DNA of 21,939 bases, taken from positions 1-21,939 of IMG/VR virus record IMGVR_UViG_3300043119_000038; one strand, written 5' to 3'. Positions 3,829 through 18,172 of the stretch are shown one piece after another. This stretch comes from a virus. The position numbers and the translations under genes were made by a program. Numbering within the stretch: position 1 is the first letter of the stretch; each line of letters begins with the position of its first letter. The notes beneath the pieces were generated by a model. That model was not told the DNA's origin, searched no databases, and was given only the letters and a program-made list of their open reading frames with translations.

Positions 3829-5550
3829 ATGACTGGATATGTACGTCAGGATACCGCAAACAACATCTCTAACGGGAGTGTCATCAATGCTGATGACCTT
3901 GATGCAGAGTTTGATGCGATTGTAACTGCTTTCAATGCCAGCACTGGGCATGTCCATGATGGGACTTCAGGCAATGGTGCGCCAATCCTTGTTGTTGGTC
4001 CAGCACAGGACGTTGTTATCAGTGCTACAAGCGTGTTGCCAAAGACTGACAACGTGTTAGACCTAGGCAGTTCCACGAGAGAGTACAAAGACTTGTGGAT
4101 TGACGGTGTTGCTAACATCGACTCACTTGTTGCTGACACTGTTGATATCAATGCTGGTACGATTGATGCTACGGTTATTGGTGCTACTGCTCCTGCTGCT
4201 GGTAGCTTCACTACGGTGAATGCTTCTGGTGCTATTACTGGCGATCTGACGGGTAATGCTGCCACGGCAACCAAATTGGCTACTGCTCGTACAATCGCTC
4301 TGAGTGGTGATGTCGCAGGTTCCGCATCCTTTGATGGTTCTGCAAACGTCACAATCACTGCTACTATTCAGGCTGACTCTGTAGCACTGGGTACGGACAC
4401 TACGGGTAACTACGTTGCTGGCATCTCTGGCACAACCAATCAGGTTACTGTAACCTCTGGCACTGGTGAGGGTGTAAGCCCTGTGGTTAGTCTTCCTGCT
4501 ACCCTAGTGGTTCCCGGAACGCTTACGGTTACTGGTGCAGCAACTATTACCAGCGGTTCTATCTCTGGGATTACTGACTTGGCTGTGGCTGATGGTGGTA
4601 CAGGTGCTTCTGATGCTGCCACTGCACGTACAAACCTTGGGCTTGGCACTATTGCTACTCAAGCAGCCTCTGCAGTGTCTATTACGGGTGGGACTATTAC
4701 AGGTATTACTGACTTGGCTGTGGCTGATGGTGGTACAGGTATCTCCTCCTATACTATTGGTGACATCCTATACGCATCTGCTTCAGGTGTGCTAAGCAAA
4801 CTTGCTGACGTTGCTACGGGTAACGCCCTGATCTCTGGTGGTGTTGGCGTAGCTCCTTCCTATGGTAAGGTTGGTTTGACCACCCATGTGTCTGGTACGT
4901 TACCTCTAGCCAATGGCGGCACTAACGCAACCGATGCTGCTGGTGCGAGAACAAACCTTGGGCTTGGTACTATTGCAACTCAGGCTGCATCTGCTGTAAC
5001 TATCACTGGAGGTTCTATCTCTGGGATTACTGACCTTGCTGTAGTTGATGGTGGAACTGGGGCTTCTGATGCTGCTGGCGCTCTAGTTAACCTTGGTTTG
5101 ACTGCAACGGCTGCTGAACTTAATTATACAGACGGTGTTACCTCTGCTATCCAGACCCAACTTGATGCTAAAGCTCCTCTTGCTTCTCCTGCTCTCACAG
5201 GTACGCCAACAGTAAACGGGTCCAGTGTTGCGCTAAATAAAGCTGCGTCAGCACTCACAGATGCGGCAACGATAGCAGTCGATATGGCAAACGGCCCAAA
5301 CTTCTCTGTTACACTAGCTGGTAACAGGACGCTTGGAACTCCCACAAACCAAGTGGTTGGCATGAGTGGCTTTATTGTTGTAACTCAGGATGCAACAGGC
5401 TTTAGAACACTGTCCTATGCTGCTGACTGGAAATGGTTTGGTGGTCAGACGCCAGTGCTTACAACGACTGCAAACGCACGAGATGTTATCCTGTACACAG
5501 TACTCTCCAGCGGTAATATTCTGGCATCTATCGCAAGGGCCATCCCATGA
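3829..5550 (+). CDS. Tail fibre protein with GGTG-type repeats
   Basis: 573 residues. The N-terminus (about 1-60) has the DADDLDAEFDAI style of phage fibre attachment domains and ends in GHVHDGTSGNG. A long Gly/Thr/Ala-rich shaft follows. Between about residues 240 and 425 it repeats the unit GITDLAVADGGTG plus ARTNLGLGTIATQA, with further partial units. The block LNYTDGVTSAIQTQLDAKAP is a very common fibre motif, and the C-terminal 110 residues form a small globular region. It has no signal peptide and no catalytic motif. It would attach to the tail hub and carry the adsorption proteins encoded next. The stop overlaps the next start (ATGA). The name is well supported by the repeats and context. 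Confidence 0.85.
   Translation: MTGYVRQDTANNISNGSVINADDLDAEFDAIVTAFNASTGHVHDGTSGNGAPILVVGPAQDVVISATSVLPKTDNVLDLGSSTREYKDLWIDGVANIDSLVADTVDINAGTIDATVIGATAPAAGSFTTVNASGAITGDLTGNAATATKLATARTIALSGDVAGSASFDGSANVTITATIQADSVALGTDTTGNYVAGISGTTNQVTVTSGTGEGVSPVVSLPATLVVPGTLTVTGAATITSGSISGITDLAVADGGTGASDAATARTNLGLGTIATQAASAVSITGGTITGITDLAVADGGTGISSYTIGDILYASASGVLSKLADVATGNALISGGVGVAPSYGKVGLTTHVSGTLPLANGGTNATDAAGARTNLGLGTIATQAASAVTITGGSISGITDLAVVDGGTGASDAAGALVNLGLTATAAELNYTDGVTSAIQTQLDAKAPLASPALTGTPTVNGSSVALNKAASALTDAATIAVDMANGPNFSVTLAGNRTLGTPTNQVVGMSGFIVVTQDATGFRTLSYAADWKWFGGQTPVLTTTANARDVILYTVLSSGNILASIARAIP
4555..5034 (+). repeat. Imperfect direct repeats inside the tail-fibre gene
   Basis: An exact 36-base repeat occurs at 4570-4605 and 4705-4740 (135 bases apart), encoding TDLAVADGGTG. 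A 24-base exact repeat occurs at 4555-4578 and 5011-5034. A 17-base repeat (ACAAACCTTGGGCTTGG) occurs at 4630-4646 and 4951-4967. All are in frame, so recombination between copies would lengthen or shorten the fibre shaft without a frameshift. Confidence 0.9.
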
Positions 5551-6219: not shown

Positions 6220-6567
6220 ATGACACACTGCATCAGTAATGACGGGACCATTTGGCAGGGAGAACCTATTAACGGGGTCCAGCACCCACAGAACATCGTT
6301 GACCTGTGGACAGATGAAGAACTTTCTGTAATTGGGTTGACGAAAGTTGTAACCGTTTCAGTTCAGCCAACAGAGGCGGATTTGGTAAGGGGAGAGAGAA
6401 ACTACCTACTCATTACCGTTGTTGACCCTATCGCCACTAACGTCCTACGTTGGAACGACCTTACAGAAGCAGAACAACAAGCACTGGCAAAATATCGTCG
6501 TAACCTACTTGATGTACCTAACCAAGATGGTTTCCCTCAAAATGTGATCTGGCCTGTCAAACCCTAA
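6220..6567 (+). CDS. Tail-fibre assembly chaperone-like protein
   Basis: 115 residues. The C-terminus LTEAEQQALAKYRRNLLDVP, followed by a Gly-Phe-Pro and an ending WPVKP, matches the pattern of phage tail assembly chaperones (Phage_tail_APC type), which help fold or mount tail fibres. The N-terminal half is a variable beta region probably specific to the partner fibre tip. The ATG at 6220 is preceded by GAGGA at 6211-6215. An ATG four bases earlier is out of frame and closes after seven codons. It directly follows the receptor-binding candidate, the common order for fibre plus chaperone cassettes. It is the last gene before a fresh promoter. Confidence 0.72.
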   Translation: MTHCISNDGTIWQGEPINGVQHPQNIVDLWTDEELSVIGLTKVVTVSVQPTEADLVRGERNYLLITVVDPIATNVLRWNDLTEAEQQALAKYRRNLLDVPNQDGFPQNVIWPVKP

Positions 6568-14604: not shown

Positions 14605-14941
14605 GGTCCTCCACCTCCTGAATCAACCTACTTAGATACCATTGCGCTTTCTTTAAGTCCTCTAGCCCGTTCTTGTAGCGCCAACGGTGCAGATACTTCG
14701 CAATGTTACCACGAAGATACCCTACATACTCATCATAAGAGAGGAAGTCCGCAATGTAGTCAATACACTCAATGTCACCCTGACCGTAGTGCTTTGGGTA
14801 ATTCACAATGTCATAGTTGATCCTATCTTGTGATACTTCTTCATCCTCTTCAGGGTCTGTCCAGTATGCACCACCGACAACCCCAGCCCTCTTGATGTTA
14901 TCCAGAGCCTGTTGTATTCCGTCTGTATCCCACTTAGCCAT
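14594..14941 (-). CDS. DUF3310 / T7 gp1.7-like nucleotide kinase-type protein
   Basis: 115 residues from the ATG at 14941, which overlaps the PhoH stop as TGATG; a GTG one codon earlier would also work. The diagnostic block is in the second half: NYPKHYGQGDIECIDYI, then YLRGNIAKYLHRWRYKNG and LEDLKKAQWYLSRLI. This is the DUF3310 pattern, shared with the C-terminal part of T7 gp1.7, which is a dGMP/dTMP kinase. The N-terminal 45 residues are acidic and variable. The expected job is converting deoxynucleoside monophosphates during phage replication. It sits in one operon with ribonucleotide reductase, glutaredoxin and MazG, consistent with that. The domain call is strong. The kinase activity is inferred from T7, and stand-alone DUF3310 proteins are mostly uncharacterised. 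Confidence 0.75.
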   Translation of the reverse strand: MAKWDTDGIQQALDNIKRAGVVGGAYWTDPEEDEEVSQDRINYDIVNYPKHYGQGDIECIDYIADFLSYDEYVGYLRGNIAKYLHRWRYKNGLEDLKKAQWYLSRLIQEVEDHEV

Positions 14942-15645
14942 CACAACTTCTCCTCTTCAAAAGCAATGATCCACTGCTTACAAATGTCACTACGAACGAT
15001 ATCATCCACGCCAAACTCAATGGTTGGGATACCCATGTTATACTTCTTGGCGAGGTGCAGAATCTTACTAAGGCCACTCTGTTCCTTAATGTCGCTCTGC
15101 TTGATATCACCATTGATGACAATAGTACACTCTTTACCAACACGAGTCAAGAGCATTTTCATCTCATGGATCGTAAGGTTCTGTGCCTCATCAACGATAA
15201 TAAAAGCCCTGTTGAAACTACGCCCACGCATGACAGACAGTGGGACCATCTGGATATTACCAGCCTTCATCCCAGTCTCGACCACGCTCTTGCCCAGTTG
15301 CTGCTCAAGTACGTCAAGCACTGGCATGATCCACGGGGTGTACTTCTCTTCAAGAGTTCCCGGAAGGTAACCCAAGTCTTTACCCACAGCGATGTTAGGT
15401 CGAGTGATAATGATGCGGTCAATGCGGCGATTAGCATACAGATTCGCCGCATGGGATGCGGCGATAAAGGTCTTACCCGTACCACTGAACCCTGTCACAA
15501 TGATCTGACTGCTTGTATTAAGCGCAGAGATATACCGTTGTTGTGCATCATTCATAGCCACAAGATTGACAGTGCGGACCTTAGCCTCTTCTCCTGCGTT
15601 CTTGTAGCGTGTCACCCGTTTGCCCTTAGGCTTGCCTTCATCCAT
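14941..15645 (-). CDS. phoH: PhoH-like P-loop ATPase
   Basis: 234 residues. The Walker A is GFSGTGKT (52-59). Walker B is FIIVDEAQN (about 148-156). Other PhoH hallmarks are TRPNIAVGKDLGYLPGTLEEK, a VPLSVMRGRSF block, and a late VINGDIKQSD resembling the sensor motif. The length is typical for the phage form, which lacks extra domains. PhoH proteins are widespread in marine phages; the family is linked to the phosphate-starvation regulon and to RNA-related or helicase-like ATPase activity, but the phage role is not settled. It starts 8 bases before the glutaredoxin stop and its own stop overlaps the DUF3310 start. It is cytoplasmic with no membrane segment. Confidence 0.93.
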   Translation of the reverse strand: MDEGKPKGKRVTRYKNAGEEAKVRTVNLVAMNDAQQRYISALNTSSQIIVTGFSGTGKTFIAASHAANLYANRRIDRIIITRPNIAVGKDLGYLPGTLEEKYTPWIMPVLDVLEQQLGKSVVETGMKAGNIQMVPLSVMRGRSFNRAFIIVDEAQNLTIHEMKMLLTRVGKECTIVINGDIKQSDIKEQSGLSKILHLAKKYNMGIPTIEFGVDDIVRSDICKQWIIAFEEEKL

Positions 15646-15868
15646 TAGATGGTTCCTTGAAGTATGCTTCTAGTTCTGTGTAGCCACCAATAACCTCTGT
15701 CTGGCGGATGATTAGTGGGACTTTCTTGTAGCCACCCTTCATCATAAGAGCTGCCACCCAGATATTATCATACAGGTCTACATAGCAGTAGCTTACCTGA
15801 TTGTCCTTAAGTAACTGCTTGGCTTTGTCGCACCAGTGGCAGTCAGGTCTTCCAACGATTGTATACAC
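15638..15868 (-). CDS. Glutaredoxin
   Basis: 76 residues, the normal length for a phage or small bacterial glutaredoxin. The redox site is C10-His-Trp-C13, followed by DKAKQLL. The cis-proline site is KVPLI and the C-terminal IGGYTEL is the glutathione-side motif. It most likely supplies electrons to the ribonucleotide reductase encoded upstream in the same operon. The start is GTG at 15868, served by a full AAGGAGGT (complement of 15872-15879). An ATG two bases upstream (ATGTG) is out of frame and would encode an unrelated 25-residue peptide. The last 8 bases overlap the PhoH gene. Upstream lies the only sizeable non-coding gap of this arm, which is rich in hairpins. Confidence 0.92.
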   Translation of the reverse strand: MYTIVGRPDCHWCDKAKQLLKDNQVSYCYVDLYDNIWVAALMMKGGYKKVPLIIRQTEVIGGYTELEAYFKEPSNG

Positions 15869-15871
15869 ATT

Positions 15872-15879
15872 ACCTCCTT
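15872..15879 (-). promoter_or_regulatory. Consensus Shine-Dalgarno for glutaredoxin
   Basis: AAGGAGGT on the minus strand, a perfect anti-SD match, ends 3 bases before the GTG start at 15868 and 1 base before an out-of-frame ATG at 15870. The better spacing and the conserved protein select the GTG. Confidence 0.75.
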
Positions 15880-15918
15880 GTGTTCTGTTGTAGGGGAGGA
15901 CGAGGGGCGCTCTAACCC

Positions 15919-16009
15919 TAGGCCAGTGCCGAAGCTGTGGCCTATCCTATTCCCTTGTGGGTGATCAGTCCCACTCACTGTGTAACATCCACAGATTAGG
16001 CCGAAGCCT
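15919..16009 (-). ncRNA. Candidate structured RNA / untranslated leader with four hairpins
   Basis: This part of the 158-base non-coding gap upstream of glutaredoxin folds, on the transcribed minus strand, into four successive hairpins. (1) 15998-16009: AGGC, TTCG loop, GCCT. (2) 15978-15994: CTGTG, 7-base loop, CACAG. (3) 15957-15974: GTGGG, 8-base loop holding TGATCA, CCCAC. (4) 15919-15944: a 7-bp stem TAGGCCA/TGGCCTA, a 2x2 internal loop, 2 bp and a TTCG loop. None is followed by a U-tract, so they are not plain terminators. A TAGGG/CCCTA pairing (15891-15895 with 15916-15920) could compete with hairpin 4 nearer the ribosome site. I do not recognise a riboswitch class. It may be a leader, an mRNA-processing or stability element, or a small RNA. 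Confidence 0.45.
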
Positions 16010-16026
16010 CGGTCAGACGCTTGTTC

Positions 16027-16242
16027 TTAAGTTTTTGTAGCCGCTTTCACAGCCCACATAGCTGCACTCTCAACCTCGGTTTGAGCCAGAGATTTAAGTC
16101 TGACGATCTCCCCTAGATTAGCCTGATCATCAATACCCTCAATCAAGTCAATTAGGTCAGCCGCAGCCCGCTTGATCTTACTCACCGTGTCATCGTTAGA
16201 GGGGTTAAAGCTAATCCCCACTCGGTACTCACCTTTAGTCAT
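16027..16242 (-). CDS. Acb2/Tad1-type hairpin protein, candidate cyclic-nucleotide sponge (anti-CBASS/anti-Thoeris)
   Basis: 71 residues. It opens with YRVGISFNPSNDDTVSKIKR, continues as a helix (AAADLIDLIEGID), and ends in the hallmark AQTEVESAAMWAVKAATK. This two-helix layout, with the FNPS element, a Lys/Ile-rich first helix and the AAMWAVKA second helix, matches what I know of the small Acb2/Tad1 hairpin domain family. Characterised members assemble into oligomers that bind signalling cyclic nucleotides and so silence CBASS or Thoeris immunity. Phe12-Asn13 and Lys24 fall near the positions where I recall aromatic, Asn and Lys ligand contacts in Acb2; this is inference. The start is ATG with GGAGAGGAG upstream. 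It lies 16 bases after the reductase stop. Activity and ligand are untested, and many family members are simply small unknown phage proteins. Confidence 0.72.
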   Translation of the reverse strand: MTKGEYRVGISFNPSNDDTVSKIKRAAADLIDLIEGIDDQANLGEIVRLKSLAQTEVESAAMWAVKAATKT

Positions 16243-16258
16243 TCTAGCTCCTCTCCGA

Positions 16259-18172
16259 TTAAGTCAAGTCAACAATCTCACAGGCATCACCAGAACAAGC
16301 CATCGTCTGTGAACCTGATGTGTTGTCTTCCTGTTCATAGTCTGCCAGCTTAGCCCAGTCAATAGCCTTGGGCATAACCTCTAGCAGTTTCTCGTAGTCA
16401 CTCTTACCAATCTCTTGGTAGGGAGCCTGTTGGTAGGTATGCTCGTTGTATGGCAAGAAAGACACACCAGACATTTCATCGAAGTGCTTGTAGACAAAAG
16501 CACCAACCTCAAACCACTCATCACTACGCACGTTAATAGTAACAGATGGCTTATGCTCACACCAACTACGCTGATAGGCCAACCACATCTCTAGCTGGTC
16601 GATAGCACTCAGGTCTTCCGTAACCACTGCACCCTCTGGAGCCTTCATGGGGAAGCTGAACACGGTGGTCTGTGTAGGCTTCATCACATCAGGTTCAGAT
16701 GGGATACCTTGGTCCTTCATAAACTGTGTCAGAGGGTCTTTGTTATCTCCACGCACAGTCCGAATATAATAGGCTGAGTGACGAGCATGAATCCCACTGG
16801 CACTGTCAACAAGCTGAGAGACTGTTCCCGAAGGTTTAACACAGGTGATAGCAGCAGCCACAGGGATGCCAAGACGTTCAGCCCACTCAGCGTTAGTAAC
16901 AATAGCAACATTCTTTAGATGCTCCAGTGTCTGAGATAGACCAGCGTTCTTAGTGGTCATCAGTGGGTTGTCCATGATCCCAGTCAACGACACACCAAGC
17001 AGACGTTCTTCTTCTGTGTTGGTTTGCCAAATCTTACGCAAGTAGGGGAACTTGGTGTAGGTAGACTGGATCGTACCCAAGATGGTAGCAAGGCGAACCT
17101 TATCCTCCAGTGTCTTGAGTGTGTCAGTGGCACGAACAACAACCTCTGTCAGGTTGCAGAACTGGTATGGACGCAGGATAATCTCTGAGCATGGGTTAGT
17201 CCCAAAGTCATAGTCAGTCTTGCGGCGACCATTCTTTGCTGCCTGCTTCTTGGAAGCCTGACGATTGAAGATGCCACGCTCACCTGAACCACTCTCAACA
17301 AGTGCAGTCCACTCACGCATGAAGCTGACAGCATCTGGCTTCTCTGTGTAGCTAACAGAGTTGTTAGCCAGACCACGCTGAGGGTTGTTCTCCCACCAGT
17401 TGCCAGACTTAGCATAGCGCATACGATCATCCGACAGGTTGGACAGAGAGATCATAGCACTACGGCGTACACCACCAACCACAACCACTTCACCAATCTT
17501 ACACATGATGTCATGGCACTCAAGGGAGGACAGCTTGCGACCCTTGGCTTCCTTGAACTTACCAGTAACGAACTGGAACAAGTCAATCAGTGGGGCTGGA
17601 CCAGATGCACGACCACCAAAGGTCTTCAACTTAGCACCAGCAGGACGCACCAGAGAGACATCCCACTTAGGGATTTCACCAGAGTACAGCAGGGCAATGA
17701 CTTGACGCAGTGCCTTGGCCCAACCCTCCTTGCTGTCCTTGACCACAACAGTGGTGTCAGACTGGAACATAACCTCTGGAACCTCTGGCAGCTTGCTGAT
17801 GAACTGACGCTCAACAGAGAAGCCAACACCAGTACCACACAGCAGGATGAACATAGCTTCATCAAAAGCCTTAGGGTCATCCACTGGCAGGTACGAGCAG
17901 TTGTATCCAGCAGTGTTGTCACGCTCCAGCGCAGGGCCAGCAGTCATTACAGCCCGCATGGATGGCATAATCTCTAGGCCAAGGATAGCAGCTTCGATAG
18001 CCTCATAGGTGGCCCAGTCTTCACCACGGTCCAGTGGCTTAGCTACTACATTCTCCATGTAGCGGGTGACAGTCTCACCCCAGTTCTCACGACGACCCTC
18101 ATCCTGCAACCAACGTGCATAACGAGAAGTCGCAATGAAGGACTGATAGTCTGTAGGCAAGTAGTTGCTCAT
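16259..18172 (-). CDS. nrdJ: Adenosylcobalamin-dependent (class II) ribonucleoside-triphosphate reductase
   Basis: 637 residues. It reduces ribonucleotides to deoxyribonucleotides using B12 as radical source, with no oxygen requirement. Visible catalytic set: Cys92 (GYNCSYLP), Asn326/Cys328/Glu330 (GTNPCSEI), Cys339 (QFCNLTEV), and a C-terminal pair Cys626/Cys631 (CSGDAC). The 11-residue step between Cys328 and Cys339 and the 5-residue step in the tail equal those of the Lactobacillus leichmannii monomeric enzyme (408/419 and 731/736), so the whole redox relay is present. CVKPSGTVSQL is also conserved. It is about 100 residues shorter than that enzyme. The start ATG overlaps the stop of the upstream membrane-protein gene (TAATG). 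A glutaredoxin in the same operon is the likely reductant. The host or its surroundings must supply cobalamin. Confidence 0.93.
   Translation of the reverse strand: MSNYLPTDYQSFIATSRYARWLQDEGRRENWGETVTRYMENVVAKPLDRGEDWATYEAIEAAILGLEIMPSMRAVMTAGPALERDNTAGYNCSYLPVDDPKAFDEAMFILLCGTGVGFSVERQFISKLPEVPEVMFQSDTTVVVKDSKEGWAKALRQVIALLYSGEIPKWDVSLVRPAGAKLKTFGGRASGPAPLIDLFQFVTGKFKEAKGRKLSSLECHDIMCKIGEVVVVGGVRRSAMISLSNLSDDRMRYAKSGNWWENNPQRGLANNSVSYTEKPDAVSFMREWTALVESGSGERGIFNRQASKKQAAKNGRRKTDYDFGTNPCSEIILRPYQFCNLTEVVVRATDTLKTLEDKVRLATILGTIQSTYTKFPYLRKIWQTNTEEERLLGVSLTGIMDNPLMTTKNAGLSQTLEHLKNVAIVTNAEWAERLGIPVAAAITCVKPSGTVSQLVDSASGIHARHSAYYIRTVRGDNKDPLTQFMKDQGIPSEPDVMKPTQTTVFSFPMKAPEGAVVTEDLSAIDQLEMWLAYQRSWCEHKPSVTINVRSDEWFEVGAFVYKHFDEMSGVSFLPYNEHTYQQAPYQEIGKSDYEKLLEVMPKAIDWAKLADYEQEDNTSGSQTMACSGDACEIVDLT

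Follow-up and report, generated by a model that had tools for sequence, protein, structure and literature searches.

The 158-base gap between an Acb2-like gene and a glutaredoxin (Grx) gene in this phage genome contains a conserved, structured RNA element of 128 nt, which is present in 17 other uncultured phage contigs and which we consider to be, with a probability of about 0.57, a stand-alone pseudoknotted phage RNA that would be processed from a longer transcript and act in trans. The window, i.e. the whole stretch of 21,939 nucleotides analyzed, carries on the minus strand of its left arm, in this order, a B12-type ribonucleotide reductase (RNR) gene, the Acb2-like gene, the gap, Grx and a PhoH-like gene (Table 1). 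With Grx starting at 15868 and the upstream gene ending at 16027, the gap has the length given in the first-pass annotation, which had read most of it as a multi-hairpin non-coding segment. The named phages closest by the window RNR are Lentibacter phage ICBM2 and Roseobacter phages, so the host is likely a member of the Rhodobacteraceae. The Acb2/Tad1 hairpin-domain protein (PF24729) belongs to an anti-defence sponge family; relatives of this type are abundant among viral contigs (112 confirmed), and the gene is not beside the element in L082 and L083.

Table 1. Features of the RNA element and of the adjoining genes in the window
Feature	Position	Strand	Basis or remark
Conserved structured RNA element, 128 nt	15897..16024	-	Covariance model R1, BLAST, conservation boundaries
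P1, 5' strand, GCGU C UGACC	16011..16020	-	Pairs with 15907-15917
P1, 3' strand, GGUUA GA GCGC	15907..15917	-	Canonical-cell counts
P2, hairpin, 4-5 bp, UUCG tetraloop in the window	15997..16010	-	Hand-registered pair counts
P3, hairpin, 5 bp, 7-nt loop GAUGUUA, invariant stem	15978..15994	-	
P4, hairpin, 4-5 bp, conserved UGAU in loop	15957..15974	-	
P5, hairpin, up to 7 bp, length variable, covarying	15920..15943	-	
P6, 5' strand, AGGAU	15944..15948	-	Pairs with 15897-15901; RNAalifold on alignment A2
P6, 3' strand, GUCCU	15897..15901	-	RNAalifold on alignment A2
P7, alternative hairpin, GGGU(UAGAGC)GCCC	15905..15918	-	Exclusive with P1
B12-type RNR	16259-18172	-	Window left arm
71-aa gene, Acb2/Tad1 hairpin domain	16027-16242	-	Pfam PF24729
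Grx	15638-15868	-	Window left arm
PhoH-like gene	14941-15645	-	Window left arm

Relatives were collected by element-derived pattern scans of IMG/VR and by BLAST; with the gap as query, BLAST against loci retrieved through their neighbouring proteins matched L083, L002, L082 and L010. The 17 contigs comprise 16 complete copies (L082/L086, L083/L089, L087, L088, L090/L002, L091, L092, L093, L094, L095/L010, L096, L097, L098, L099, L100 and L112) and one truncated but true member, L179, which scores 81 bits and was excluded from the alignments. The complete copies, together with that of the window, represent 14 distinct sequences. Covariance model R1, which was built with the window sequence included, gives the window element 145.8 bits, and the covariance model finds a single copy in each of 16 IMG/VR records. 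Loose pattern matches (L101-L111, L178 and L180-L182) were judged to be chance and dropped; among them, L182 reaches 17 bits (E 8e-4), but it had been selected by pattern and visual inspection shows no further likeness to the element, and it is left out of the count. Thirty further pattern loci are T-even rnaD or chance. Seven cultured relatives (Roseobacter phages CRP-4, -5, -6, -118, -403 and -804 and Lentibacter phage ICBM2) gave no significant match to the model, five lacking any match and two being at chance level (E 0.10 and 0.14). Likewise, blastn of the element against 50,697 phage records returned only short chance matches, a comparison with 72,556 plasmid records gave no real DNA similarity, and the only match to one exact element pattern in the genome collection was judged to be chance.

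The element is clearly conserved beyond chance and sharply bounded. Across the 14 sequences, its columns show a mean pairwise identity of 0.82 (minimum 0.68) and 66 of 153 are invariant; for the 100 nt upstream the mean identity is 0.49, with 2 invariant columns of 208, and for the 100 nt downstream it is 0.63, with 3 of 196. Between the window and L097, the element is identical at 106 of 119 positions (89%) versus protein identities of 57% for PhoH and 47% for Grx; between the window and L112, it is identical at 101 of 125 positions, versus 0.58, 0.43 and 0.20 at the four-fold-degenerate sites of RNR, Grx and PhoH, respectively. The pattern does not hold everywhere: compared with L082 and L083, the element (0.75 and 0.84) is about as diverged as the RNR four-fold sites (0.75 and 0.78), mainly because P2 and P5 have been exchanged. 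The conserved block does not look like a gene: no open frame is conserved across the set, all three forward frames contain stops or lose frame, and the lengths of the element span all three classes modulo 3.

The hairpins of the element are firmly established, and the four that the first-pass annotation had listed are all present, P2 with its UUCG loop, P3, P4 and P5, whose 7-bp stem encloses a UUCG. In P2, the UUCG loop is exchanged for GNRA loops among the relatives, where the tetraloop is UUAU, GAAA, GCAA or GUAA, and pairs 2-5 are each canonical in 13 of 13 sequences despite three different stems. These counts were made by hand, since L095 and L099 are misregistered at P2 in alignments A2 and A3, and they omit L112, in which P2 is a different, longer hairpin. 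P4 shows one G-C to A-U double change (4 of 14 sequences), and P5 shows a double change at one pair and one-sided changes at three pairs. Thus, compensatory changes occur in P2, P4 and P5; P3 is invariant, as are P6 and P7 for the most part. Over P3-P7, 96.3% of 350 cells are paired versus 35-49% in slid controls, and none of 500 shuffles reached this pairing fraction or the covariation score; taken by itself, however, the count of doubly changed pairs, two, is no higher than in shuffles (375/500). In the set that includes P1 and P2, 91.2% of 364 cells are paired.

The long-range organization of these hairpins is a proposal. In P6, 98.6% of the cells are paired. In P1, canonical cells amount to 67 of 70 for UGACC/GGUUA and to 52 of 56 for GCGU/GCGC, and we propose that P1 and P6 cross to form a pseudoknot. 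Alternative hairpin P7 is canonical in 56 of 56 cells, with a U-G to U-A change in L100. P1 and P7 cannot form together, so that either may belong to the true fold, and invariant pairs prove neither of them. Another possible pseudoknot, ACAAGG/CCUYGU, was not relied on (73 of 84 cells canonical, no compensation).

Altogether, the suggestion of a structured RNA in the gap is borne out by homologous gaps that exist and covary, with 66 invariant columns and compensatory changes in three hairpins, and by the lack of an Rfam match. A search of the whole window against Rfam 15 at the gathering threshold returned no family, a search of positions 15800-16300 with E up to 10 returned nothing but an 11.5-bit snoRNA match lying outside the element, and the element loci of four relatives gave, with E up to 1, at most sub-threshold snoRNA matches that are possibly chance. 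A cobalamin riboswitch, considered as a candidate given the B12-dependent RNR, found no Rfam match. A literature search for noncoding RNAs of roseophages and for nrdJ RNA motifs brought up only papers that look unrelated, which is not proof of absence. According to PMC6775973, cobavirus genomes have no tRNAs, and the main text of that paper uses none of the terms ncRNA, non-coding or riboswitch. The companion expectation of a fold more stable than shuffled sequence failed: the folding energy has a z-score of -1.08 for a 177-nt stretch and of -1.45 for the 128-nt window element, and the z-scores of 11 relatives (out of 13 that are distinct) range from -0.86 to +0.31. Folding energy alone is therefore no better than that of shuffles and uninformative here. 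These near-zero values would suit hairpins that arose by chance within a spacer, an explanation that is refuted by the conservation, its boundaries and the compensatory changes and is hardly credible.

The genes around the element vary. Upstream neighbours include RNR, the Acb2-like gene, a GIY-YIG gene and tRNA-Leu, and downstream neighbours include Grx, tRNA-Arg(UCU) and a tRNA that looks intron-split; a tRNA gene adjoins the element in 4 of the 14 distinct contexts. RNR lies directly upstream in L082, L083, L087, L099 and L112; the Acb2-like gene stands between the two in the window, L090 and L095; and L091-L093 have an apparent HNH insertion, as read by eye, near the end of the upstream RNR. 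In L096 and L097, a GIY-YIG gene and a much-diverged RNR (27-28% identity, PF02867; L097:1883-3577) lie upstream, the latter replacing the usual RNR beside the same RNA element. In L100, the 3' end of tRNA-Leu(UAA) coincides with the start of the element, and this phage matches the window at only two places (window ORFs 3829-5550 and 6220-6567). Since the neighbouring genes differ while the element is conserved, the element moves without being tied to any single gene.

Several insertions were also observed. In L002 (2262-2494) and L023 (856-1089), the phage B12-type RNR gene is split near residue 339 by a group I intron (RF00028), and in L112 this gene is likewise interrupted, with a GIY-YIG gene inside. 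At L100:11768-12300, an apparent tRNA gene seems to be split by an insert that carries an HNH gene (PF13391) on the opposite strand and gives no group I match at the gathering threshold. Finally, three distinct contexts (L082:3806-3853, L092 and L112:3420-3470) have a CCTAGGACA...TGTCCTAGGTTT hairpin after the RNR stop and before the element, perhaps a weak terminator.

We favour a stand-alone RNA over a leader of Grx or a 3' element of RNR, because the element is sharply conserved while the flanking genes change. A compact pseudoknotted RNA of about 120-145 nt would be transcribed together with the left-arm genes and probably released by processing of the transcript, through the enzymes that mature tRNAs in those contexts that have an adjoining tRNA; the invariant single-stranded segments of the RNA would then bind a host or phage partner, so that it would act in trans. 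Several observations count against this reading: Grx follows the element in 12 of the 14 contexts, directly or after a tRNA, as would also be expected of a cis-element; no promoter was found within 15600-16400, where searches for sigma-70-like and terminator-like sites were both negative; the folding energy is no better than that of shuffles; and P1 and P7 are competing pairings. More tentatively, and at somewhat less than even odds, the element may represent a new family of trans-acting pseudoknotted RNAs that moves between unrelated marine phage lineages, occupies a slot among tRNA and nucleotide-metabolism genes and targets a conserved host component, perhaps of the translation or RNA-decay machinery, a role that T4 RNAs C and D may share.

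The same frequency of Grx is what would favour a cis-regulatory, riboswitch-like leader, in which P6 or the 3' tail would compete for the ribosome site and control Grx and later genes. The mutual exclusion of P1 and P7, both conserved, would fit such a switch, and in the window fold the tail of the element does pair with the Grx ribosome site (CCUCC/GGAGG), as the first-pass annotation had noticed; this part of its claim stands for the window, but the partners differ among the 10 contexts tested, and no conserved pairing masks the site. Moreover, Grx directly follows the element in only 10 of the 14 contexts. In L097 and L112 a tRNA-Arg(UCU) precedes Grx; in L099 it precedes an unknown gene; L099 and L100 have no Grx after the element, and L100 has no tRNA-Arg(UCU) there either. 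A tRNA between element and Grx would be excised by RNase P and 3' enzymes, which would separate the two. In addition, Grx lies -4 to +45 nt 3' of RNR in four of the seven cultured relatives searched, and these four carry no copy of the element. The earlier idea of a regulatory leader is weakened accordingly, and we regard it as unlikely. Slightly less probable still is a 3'-UTR or intercistronic element that would determine where the upstream message, mostly that of RNR, ends and how stable it is. RNR does lie upstream in 13 of the 14 contexts, often with another gene between, and to this extent the proposed tie to nucleotide genes holds; it breaks down in L100, where tRNA-Leu rather than a message is directly upstream, and other genes are interposed in the window, L090, L095, L096 and L097. 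The short stems also do not resemble RNase III sites. The gap contains no intrinsic terminator (GC hairpin followed by a U-tract), in agreement with the initial remark that none of the hairpins ends in a U-tract. The fold, which is compact, perhaps includes a pseudoknot and leaves invariant segments unpaired, would also fit a self-cleaving ribozyme of an undescribed class acting on the transcript, but no Rfam ribozyme matches with E up to 10, and this is improbable.

The element thus defines a candidate RNA family that has covariation support and is not represented in Rfam 15. Being short, single-copy and sharply bounded, it makes expression, fold and partner directly testable, and it illustrates how structured RNAs missed by a folding-energy test can reside in the gaps between tightly packed phage genes. 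It joins a small set of phage RNAs that lie near tRNA genes and have no known function. The closest in setting are the two small stable RNAs of T4, rnaC and rnaD (139 and 119 nt), which lie beside tRNA-Arg and the GIY-YIG gene segB and which PMC9697503 calls 'RNAs of yet unknown functions'. tRNA-Arg with anticodon UCU also adjoins T4-type rnaD in related records, and the same tRNA stands beside the element in 3 of the 14 distinct contexts (L097, L099 and L112), not in the window. However, T4 is an enterobacterial myovirus with many tRNAs, unlike the setting of the element, and RNA D has no significant sequence similarity to it. A joint alignment reveals some likeness of motifs by eye; homology is unsupported by model R1, which has no match at the gene in T4, by pairwise alignment (69 of 400 shuffles score as high for T4) and by profile comparison (equally high scores in 65 of 150 nulls). 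GOLLD and ROOL, described in PMC12286853 as phage RNAs of unknown function that are often near tRNA islands, are far larger, many GOLLD RNAs exceeding 800 nt according to the same paper, whereas the element matches no Rfam family. Finally, riboswitch-type leaders are similar in being conserved, pseudoknot-capable RNAs, usually upstream of a metabolic gene, and differ from the element, which lacks an Rfam match, has a variable downstream gene and is followed by an interposed tRNA in three contexts.
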